Positions 2,181-30,429 of a stretch of 58,110 nucleotides of DNA are shown here, piece after piece. The notes under the pieces are model-generated. The model saw nothing but the letters and a program-made list of their open reading frames with translations, was not told the DNA's origin and did not search any database. Source of the stretch: Candidatus Sulfotelmatobacter sp. (GTDB lineage: Bacteria > Acidobacteriota > Terriglobia > Terriglobales > Acidobacteriaceae); contig JADGNQ010000022.1 of NCBI GenBank assembly GCA_017883385.1, positions 1 to 58,110 on the forward strand. Direction: 5' to 3'. Positions within the stretch are counted from its first letter, which is position 1; each line of letters opens with the position of its first letter. Position numbers and translations under genes: made by a program.

Positions 2181-2218
2181 GGCGCCCCATTTCTCGCGCA
2201 CTTTGCGAGAAGTGGGTC
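2181..2218 (+). repeat. Family A palindromic hairpin, copy 1
   Basis: Left arm GCCCCATTTCTCGCG and right arm GCGAGAAGTGGG around a short loop. It is a slightly degenerate copy of the hairpin that flanks the RAYT gene near 30 kb. It lies in the intergenic space upstream of the small gene at 2385. Confidence 0.8.
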
Positions 2219-14612: not shown

Positions 14613-14650
14613 GGGTGCCCCATGTCTCGCGTCTTTTGCGAGACGTGGGG
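14613..14650 (+). repeat. Family A palindromic hairpin, copy 2
   Basis: Arms GGGTGCCCCATGTCTCGC and GCGAGACGTGGGG. The T/A change in each arm is compensatory (ATGTCTCGC pairs with GCGAGACGT), so pairing is kept. It starts six bases after the stop codon of the PilZ gene. Confidence 0.85.
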
Positions 14651-28893: not shown

Positions 28894-28926
28894 GGGTGCC
28901 CCACGTCTCGCTTTTGAGAAGTGGGG
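28894..28926 (+). repeat. Family A palindromic hairpin, shortened copy 5
   Basis: Arms GGTGCCCCACGTCTCG and GAGAAGTGGGGG with a shortened stem near the loop. It sits 20 bases after the porin stop codon. Confidence 0.75.
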
Positions 28927-29094
28927 GTTTTCGCTTTCGTCGGAAGAACCGTGGCCCACTCGTTTTCTTGTCAATAGGCAAAAACTACACGATCGTACTT
29001 AACTCGATGAAAGCATTCCGAATATAAAGATCCTTACCCTGTCCACTTTACCCCCATCAATTTAGTAAACTAGATATATAGAGTAAAAAATCAG

Positions 29095-29155: not shown

Positions 29156-29626
29156 ATGAAGCGTTGGGGGAAGTTCAGCACTCTTAAGGAGCGTGGCGAG
29201 TGGGTCGAACTCTTATTCATGGCTGCCGCCGCCTCGCATGGCTATCACGTACTCAAACCCTGGGGAGACTCTCTCGCCTACGACGTCGGCATCGAACACC
29301 GCGGCAGCCTGCTGCGAGTCCAGGTCAAGTCCAGTAGCGCCCGCAACGGCACCGGATACTTCTGCCAGTTTCGCCGCAACTATCTCACCAAGCACCCCTA
29401 CACAGTCGACGACGTCGACCTATTCGCCACCTACGTCATCCCGGTGAATGTCTGGTACCTGATCCCCGCAGCCGTAGTCCTCAAGCCCACTCGCAAAGTC
29501 GGCCTCATGGTCTATCCCGTGACCGCCCTAAAGCAGGACCGCTACAAATACGAACACTACCGCGAAGCTTGGGGTCTCCTCGCCAAAACCAGACAAGACC
29601 TGTCCCGCCGCCGCAAGCCCTGCTGA
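29156..29626 (+). CDS. PD-(D/E)XK nuclease-family protein (group I intron endonuclease-like)
   Basis: A 156-residue small protein. The nuclease core is visible: an N-terminal helix with Glu (LKERGEWVELLFMAAAASHGY), then Asp43 in AYDVGIEHRG and Gln56-x-Lys58 in LRVQVKSS, forming a D...QxK active site. This is the arrangement of the small PD-(D/E)XK proteins first described as group I intron-associated endonucleases. No intron or inserted host gene is seen here, so it is free-standing. It sits between a terminator hairpin and the RAYT unit, which suggests a mobile or selfish role, though a host role in DNA metabolism is not excluded. The C-terminus is basic. Confidence 0.72.
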   Translation: MKRWGKFSTLKERGEWVELLFMAAAASHGYHVLKPWGDSLAYDVGIEHRGSLLRVQVKSSSARNGTGYFCQFRRNYLTKHPYTVDDVDLFATYVIPVNVWYLIPAAVVLKPTRKVGLMVYPVTALKQDRYKYEHYREAWGLLAKTRQDLSRRRKPC

Positions 29627-29660
29627 CGTGGTTAACTCCGGGGTGTCCCACTTTGTCGCC

Positions 29661-29702
29661 GGGTGCCCCATTTCTCGCGTCCTTTGCGAGAAGTGGGGCT
29701 TT
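29661..29702 (+). repeat. Family A palindromic hairpin, left flank of RAYT
   Basis: Near-perfect copy with arms GGTGCCCCATTTCTCGCG and CGAGAAGTGGGGC. Its 39 core bases are identical to the copy inside the RAYT gene at 30073-30111. It lies 94 bases upstream of the RAYT start. Confidence 0.92.
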
Positions 29703-29795
29703 GCCCCGCCACAACGAATCCAGTTTTGGGAACGACAAAACAGATTTCCGTCAGAAATCACAGACACGGTCATCCTCCACCGTTACGCTGTGCCC

Positions 29796-30374
29796 ATGCC
29801 CTGGGGCTTGAAGCGCTACTACAACACCGGCGCCCTGCACTTCATCACGTGCAGTTGTTATCAACGCCAGCCCCTTCTGCATGTGCCCGATAGTCGTAAC
29901 CTCCTCCTCACCGTCCTGGAGCGGATGCGCTGTCGTTACCGATTCGTGGTCATCGGCTACGTGATCATGCCAGAACATGTTCATCTGCTGATCTCCGAAC
30001 CGCAGGTGGGAACCCCTTCGACCGTGATGCAAGCGATCAAATTGGGGTTTTGCCGCCGGGTTCTACAGCCCGGGGTGCCCCATTTCTCGCGTCCTTTGCG
30101 AGAAGTGGGGCAGTTGACGTCGGATGAGCATCCACCGCCTTCGCCGCACCACCTTTGGCAGCGCCGGTTCTACGATTTCAACGTGTGGAGTCAGCGCAAG
30201 GAGGTTGAGAAACTGCGCTACATGCATCGAAACCCCGTCGTCCGCGGCCTGGTCCAGCGCCCGGAAGACTGGCCGTGGAGTAGTTTCCGCGCCTACGCTT
30301 GCCTAGAAGTGGGACAGGTACTCGTCAACGATTGGTCTTGGTGGGAAGAGAAGCTCCGATTACAGGTCTCTTGA
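29796..30374 (+). CDS. REP-associated tyrosine transposase (RAYT, IS200/IS605-like TnpA_REP)
   Basis: A 192-residue HUH-superfamily single-strand transposase, starting at the ATG at 29796. Visible features are LHFITCSCYQRQPLL, the metal-binding His-hydrophobic-His motif (PEHVHLL, His61 and His63), the catalytic tyrosine in RRFYDFNVWS (Tyr126) and the RAYT signature KLRYMHRNPVVRGLV and WSSFRAY. Residues 92-106 (PGVPHFSRPLREVGQ) are encoded by an in-frame family A hairpin inserted between the HUH half and the Tyr half. Homologues usually have a variable linker here, so the enzyme may still work. The family mobilises or maintains REP palindromes; the flanking hairpins are the likely substrate. 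Confidence 0.9.
   Translation: MPWGLKRYYNTGALHFITCSCYQRQPLLHVPDSRNLLLTVLERMRCRYRFVVIGYVIMPEHVHLLISEPQVGTPSTVMQAIKLGFCRRVLQPGVPHFSRPLREVGQLTSDEHPPPSPHHLWQRRFYDFNVWSQRKEVEKLRYMHRNPVVRGLVQRPEDWPWSSFRAYACLEVGQVLVNDWSWWEEKLRLQVS
30073..30111 (+). repeat. Family A hairpin inserted in frame in the RAYT gene
   Basis: A perfect 39-base copy, identical to the left flanking copy, lying in the coding sequence. It is read without a stop codon and keeps the frame. Confidence 0.93.
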
Positions 30375-30388
30375 TCTTCAGAAGAGAA

Positions 30389-30429
30389 AGGCCCCACTTC
30401 TCGCAAAGAACGCGAGAAATGGGGCACCC
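30389..30429 (-). repeat. Family A hairpin, right flank of RAYT, inverted
   Basis: Reads in the opposite orientation to the left flank, 14 bases after the RAYT stop codon. On the minus strand the arms are GGTGCCCCATTTCTCGCG and CGAGAAGTGGGGC, with one loop difference. Confidence 0.92.

Follow-up and report, generated by a model that had tools for sequence, protein, structure and literature searches.

How did a copy of its own flanking palindrome come to lie in frame within a REP-associated tyrosine transposase (RAYT) gene, and what keeps it intact there? The question is raised by a locus in a 58,110-nucleotide stretch of Candidatus Sulfotelmatobacter DNA (hereafter, the window). The role of RAYTs for themselves and for their hosts is, to our knowledge, an open question, and nature supplies a ready comparison for the action of the enzyme on its own gene, in RAYT genes that lack an in-gene REP or carry one in either orientation. 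The reading favoured here, which we consider probable though far from settled, is that the locus is a REP-RAYT-inverted REP cassette (REPtron) in which a REP copy, lying in an unstructured loop, is tolerated as a passenger and owes its intact state to continued REP copying.

The RAYT gene and its three palindromes

The conserved RAYT part starts at ATG 29796 (MPWGLKRYY), inside a longer open reading frame (29628-30374; Table 1). The protein scores 106 bits against NCBIfam NF047646 (cut-off 80) and 35.7 bits against Pfam Y1_Tnp, and a PHROGs search returned weak matches only. The top PDB match of a profile built from 27 proteins (the window RAYT and 26 relatives) is 4er8, the E. coli TnpA-REP (E 1.1e-20), which is also the first fold match (E 2.3e-10) of an AlphaFold model with a mean pLDDT of 85.8. 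The original prediction of a RAYT is borne out by both profile and fold, and that of an HUH motif at His61/His63 by the alignment of the 27 proteins. In particular, the gene encodes a Y1 HUH transposase with an HUH motif and a single catalytic tyrosine, and is flanked by inverted REPs that are repeated genome-wide. The tyrosine itself had been misplaced: Y126 (RFYDF) aligns with a tryptophan and was rejected in favour of Y142, whose counterpart in 4er8 is Y115 by our own count on the profile alignment; Y115F is given as a catalytic mutant of E. coli TnpA-REP in a passage of PMC8266576. A PDDEXK_5 nuclease-like gene (29156-29626; Pfam 67.7 bits) lies directly upstream of the REPtron.

Table 1. 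The RAYT gene, its motifs and the REP copies of the window.
Feature	Position	Strand	Remarks
Upstream REP, foot GGGTG + hairpin CCCCATTTCTCGC/GCGAGAAGTGGGG	29661..29699	+	Hairpin 29666-29698; 9 further exact copies of the 33-mer in the genome
RAYT (REP-associated tyrosine transposase)	29796..30374	+	192 aa from ATG 29796; stop TGA 30372-30374
HUH motif EHVH, residues 60-63	29973..29984	+	E60, H61 and H63 invariant in the 27-protein alignment
In-gene REP, in frame	30073..30111	+	Hairpin 30078-30110; same orientation as upstream REP
Catalytic Tyr142 codon (YMHRNP)	30219..30221	+	Invariant in the 27 proteins; aligns with the 4er8 catalytic Tyr
Downstream REP, inverted	30391..30429	-	Hairpin 30392-30424; 1 mismatch in the 33-mer
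Further REP copy, weaker	2185..2217	+	3 mismatches
Further REP copy, weaker, CATGTCTCGC/GCGAGACGTG class	14618..14650	+	Pattern match in the window

The palindromes predicted on either side of the gene are indeed inverted REPs. By our own count, 96 nt separate the end of the upstream REP from the ATG and 16 nt separate the stop codon from the downstream REP, close to the 94 and 14 nt first proposed. As also predicted, the third palindrome is identical to the upstream REP over the whole unit (39/39 nt) and occupies an in-frame position that separates the HUH half from the Tyr half. The window holds five REP matches in all, compared with none in 100 dinucleotide shuffles, which rules out a chance palindrome. 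Nor is the repeat confined to the window: the genome has 32 REP places with at most three mismatches and 45 by a looser pattern (control patterns, 0 in both cases). No other exact REP sequence is as common in this genome as that of the in-gene copy, which occurs 10 times in all. The window REP has no GT[AG]G foot directly 5' of the hairpin; its sequence there is GGGTG-CCCC, i.e., GTGC. Among 118 upstream hairpins, the foot is GTGC in 68, GTGG in 19, GTAG in one and another sequence in 30. GGTG is found close to the stem in 84 of these and in 78 of 119 downstream hairpins; in random upstream segments the figure is 8%. A degenerate REP-like unit (GGGTGCCCCACGTCTCGC...GAGAAGTGGGGG) is found at 28894-28936, about 900 nt upstream of the RAYT gene, and a half-REP-like stretch in the 3' part of the gene (30298-30317, CTTGCCTAGAAGTGGGACAG) is 80% like a REP arm, a resemblance that may be due to chance.

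The in-gene unit comprises 39 nt, or 13 codons, open in the RAYT frame; with its edges, it encodes PGVPHFSRPLREVGQ, residues 92-106 counted from ATG 29796. The loop that holds this peptide (residues 91-120) has low pLDDT within an otherwise confident model, and the linker is thus predicted to be disordered. That the middle palindrome is an in-frame insertion, as originally proposed, is supported by an empty site, RRVLERIPSETPHHIWQS, in L237, a REP-flanked gene whose product is 74% identical to the window RAYT over the match, and by the same linker in L066, which is likewise REP-flanked. In contrast to these empty sites, L236, from the same genus (73%), carries the same in-frame REP with a near-identical peptide (VPHFSRSVREVG) and an intact hairpin.

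Recurrence of in-gene REPs in related RAYT genes

Of 200 genomes from the family, 170 contain a RAYT match, as do 41 of the 45 from the genus. Named acidobacterial RAYT records come mainly from Acidobacteriaceae and Candidatus Sulfotelmatobacter MAGs, and the list also includes Planctomycetota, Zixiibacteriota and others. The 353 loci yielded 263 distinct RAYT cores, mostly from the window gene's own family, and 262 after removal of L216 (first row), in which two adjacent genes had been wrongly paired. A REP of the gene's own flanking class lies in the linker of 28 of the 262 cores, and none was found in the N half or the C half of any of them. An in-gene REP is therefore not unique to the window gene, and the gap at residues 92-106 expected in all homologues fails to appear in L236, which shares the insert. 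The final 28 carriers leave out L216 and include L196 (similarity 0.59). One count covered 259 cores; of the four rows left out, three (the second row of L216, L282 and L314) are true cores that lack a REP, and L282 has a linker palindrome and no flanking REP for comparison.

The linker stands out by each measure applied. Best hairpin scores of at least 10 occur in 20 linkers and in no N or C half; scores of at least 9 occur in 28 linkers, one N half and two C halves, and these last three hairpins (L123, L065, L075) are not of REP class. Among the 197 cores with a flanking REP, a similarity to it of at least 0.65 is reached by 28 linkers, one N half and no C half. The N-half match, in L314, was rejected as a REP because what was taken for its flanking hairpin is a palindrome that also occurs within the N half of the RAYT. 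An N-half-like stretch just upstream of the L314 gene suggests a partial tandem RAYT duplication. The similarity of linkers to their own flanks is bimodal, with an empty histogram between 0.35 and 0.55; this speaks against many missed decayed copies, which may nevertheless be undercounted, as carriers were partly found via an intact hairpin. Judged by sequence similarity, the insert belongs to the cognate REP class, albeit one shared by close relatives, because a carrier's own flank is among the top four of 197 for 20 of the 28 carriers and never ranks below 21st, and median similarities to the flanks of other genes are 0.21-0.35. In-gene REPs are absent from all 42 cores of loci L089-L135, which belong mostly to other phyla, and the open reading frame is intact in 23 of the 28 carrier genes.

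The 28 in-gene REPs comprise nine in forward orientation (L001, which is the window gene, L236, L079, L138, L153, L280, L196, L335 and, by eye, L186) and 19 in reverse, and they occupy two sites, the second of which immediately precedes the EPQ segment (or the equivalent of it) and is used in L161, L179, L181 and L284. L181 seems to hold REPs at both sites, and the linker of L172 has, after a whole in-frame REP, a further partial copy that shares its 3' end, a tandem or double insertion. On a tree of 193 of the 263 cores (carriers L079 and L300 lie outside it), Fitch parsimony requires 15 changes, compared with 23 or more in 200 shuffles; the in-gene REP has therefore been inherited in part, with many gains or losses besides. 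Sorting by clade, site and orientation gives about ten to twelve groups, and the number of independent events is approximate, since several nodes are poorly supported. All states occur among near relatives of the window gene: L236 has the same insert, L067 has the opposite orientation, and the site is empty in L066/L237, L068, L069, L175, L185 and L188. In the L050 group, site and orientation agree in all nine carriers (L300 being assigned by its linker) and the frame agrees in seven. In or near the clade that inherited its in-gene REP, the element is missing from L063 and decayed, with a frameshift, in L211, and L300 has a frameshift right after an intact hairpin.

RAYT-dependent REP mobilisation most likely placed the 39-nt unit in the loop of the window gene, which implies that a RAYT moved a REP into its own gene. 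The insertion would have been tolerated because the loop between the HUH and Tyr halves is apparently dispensable, and the protein that carries the insert may well be active. Such insertions recur in the lineage, in both orientations, at two sites and with the REP class of each gene's own flanks, and the stem, once in place, stays intact at the nucleotide level.

Nucleotide-level conservation and its possible causes

Genes with matching insertions were compared in nine disjoint pairs: only 2 of 70 degenerate hairpin codons with identical residues show a synonymous change, whereas 25.6 were expected; at third codon positions of the hairpin, 3 differences were found versus 35.4 expected. Both tests, in which codons are treated as exchangeable, give P of about 5e-6, the floor of the simulation; three of the pairs lie in one clade, and two of the genes (L070, L182) hold a stop. 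A sliding-window test yields single-pair fractions of 0.002 to 0.21, not all of them significant, and a combined P of 8e-8 over the nine pairs. With 2 synonymous changes in 70 codons, it is the DNA of the hairpin that is conserved, and constraint on residues alone is insufficient. In the window pair (L001/L236), the stem is identical at 26 of 26 positions and the rest of the gene at 70%; dS of this pair could not be computed (value -1). Outside the hairpin, dN is far below dS in four of five pairs (dN/dS 0.051/0.347, 0.158/1.525, 0.151/1.248 and 0.066/0.617). A hairpin that remains unchanged while its gene reaches high synonymous divergence makes homogenisation and selection testable against each other.

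Of the two, renewal or homogenisation of REP copies by the copying process that would have inserted them seems to us the likelier way in which the stem is kept, with selection on the hairpin as its main rival. Ongoing REP copying as the cause of retention is supported by the window gene, whose in-gene copy has nine further exact copies in the genome, by L275, whose in-gene REP equals its downstream REP, and by L050, whose in-gene REP has one other genomic copy. However, if homogenisation acted alone, in-gene copies should often equal another genomic REP, and the finding that six of the nine checked (L059, L054, L276, L278, L300 and L236) have no exact second copy in their own draft genomes, by the patterns used, counts against it. 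Of these six, four are perfectly paired, L236 has a T-G mismatch typical of its class, and one pair is broken in L054. The in-gene REP of genome G123 is one of only two pattern matches there and perfectly paired; L141, which does not fit the pattern, lies outside the copy-number check. If selection is responsible, the RAYT might bind or cleave the hairpin in its own gene, as single-stranded DNA, or in its mRNA, and the hairpin would be a cis element for autoregulation or a link between enzyme and substrate. We regard this as possible but rather unlikely. The shortage of synonymous changes, the paired copies that are unique or nearly so in their genomes, and the RNA folding of the hairpin (z -4.65 in the window gene and -3.16 in L236) agree with it, as does a stem pair in the L050 clade that changes on both sides (G-C, T-A, C-G). 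This covariation amounts to modest evidence, because its score is reached by 14 of 500 shuffles (and the number of such pairs by 257 of 500); it concerns one pair, altered in two of seven distinct sequences, and the change is nonsynonymous on the 5' side and synonymous on the 3' side. Altered activity and mRNA-level self-regulation, as originally suggested, are possible effects with which the shortage of synonymous hairpin changes is the only compatible result. Against selection, about nine in ten RAYT cores do without an in-gene REP, both orientations are found, and homogenisation predicts the same conservation. The broader proposal that acidobacterial RAYT genes repeatedly capture the hairpin on which their own enzyme acts, and that selection then maintains it as a nucleic-acid element, a built-in site for self-control or tagging, is equally tentative.

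The hairpins might also merely seem conserved through youth, if independent fresh insertions had struck the same spot in each genome. The abundance of the window copy in its genome and the opposite orientations in the close relatives L001 and L067 would fit such a history, which is nonetheless improbable in view of the shared site, orientation and frame of the L050 group and of its copies, since five of the seven checked were found nowhere else in their genomes by pattern. It is more doubtful still, to the point of being barely credible, that the REP-encoded peptide itself is retained as a part of the protein. Recurrent in-frame peptides such as (V/I)P-SRK--ETWG would be in keeping with that idea; however, the nearly frozen third positions indicate that the nucleotides are held too, so peptide selection alone was judged unlikely, and the two orientations yield unrelated peptides. 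None of the 28 carriers keeps the peptide without the hairpin. In particular, the original prediction had named homologues with the same 15 residues and no DNA hairpin as evidence against it, and L236, which has the peptide, has an intact hairpin as well.

Relation to known in-gene palindromes

Palindromes inserted in frame in protein genes are also known as the Rickettsia palindromic elements, whose sequences are unrelated to the in-gene REP and for which we know of no cognate RAYT. These elements are also mentioned in a passage of PMC3733652, which describes intragenic GTAG/CGTC REPs that, like the window copy, lie inside protein genes with the reading frame kept; its emphasis is on repair and other genes, unlike the RAYT gene of the window. 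The same paper treats acidobacterial tyrosine transposases as TIRYTs, flanked by TIRs, and the passages concerned mention no in-gene copy.

The closest precedent is subclass 2.4 (RAYT group 4) of Quentin et al. 2018 (PMC6006769), in which REPs lie inside tnpA-REP genes, with the frame kept and generally between HuH and Y. The sections concerned call in-gene REPs a unique feature of this subclass, and the part on subclass 2.8 adds that some members of the small subclasses 2.7 and 2.8 have a REP insertion. The kind has thus been known since 2018, and the window gene is a real example in a lineage where it is frequent; the description of the arrangement as unusual holds for the single gene and not for the kind. 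As far as these sections go, subclass 2.4 and the window gene share the in-frame REP between HuH and Y, the flanking REPs and a predicted peripheral variable region. Of the three published key motifs, the window gene has WQ (W121-Q), and it differs in the others (EHVH and YMHRNP versus NH[IFV]H and YIxNNP). Because it misses these two, it would not belong to subclass 2.4, so the feature seems wider than stated. Main-text passages of PMC6006769 (supplement aside) do not mention orientation, repeated gain or synonymous conservation, and neither repeated gain in both orientations nor synonymous conservation was found in the parts of PMC6006769, PMC3733652, PMC8266576, PMC2817692 and PMC12306157 consulted, supplements aside. 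Among the new findings, the strongest is the nucleotide-level retention of the in-gene hairpin, and the carrier lineage, where in-gene REPs are frequent, allows the phenomenon to be dissected.

In-gene REPs show how a coding sequence can take up palindromic repeats and stay unbroken. For the genome of the window, 34 distinct REP contexts could be read in the loci examined, as against 45 places by the looser pattern. A Pfam scan covered ten frames from six loci and gave no match for seven of them; the remaining contexts were judged by eye. An in-frame REP encodes residues 477-488 of 615 in a GAF-domain protein (L027:72-1916, +), outside the Pfam domain, and another encodes residues 71-82 of 367 in a SAM_HAT (SAM hydroxide adenosyltransferase) protein (L032:1097-2197, +), where it follows an N-terminal segment and precedes the domain. 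A further REP is found close to the N terminus of an M29 peptidase frame (L019:1400-2545, +) whose start is unsure. Two main stem-length forms of the REP, with cores of 31 and 35 nt (and one of 32), coexist in this genome.
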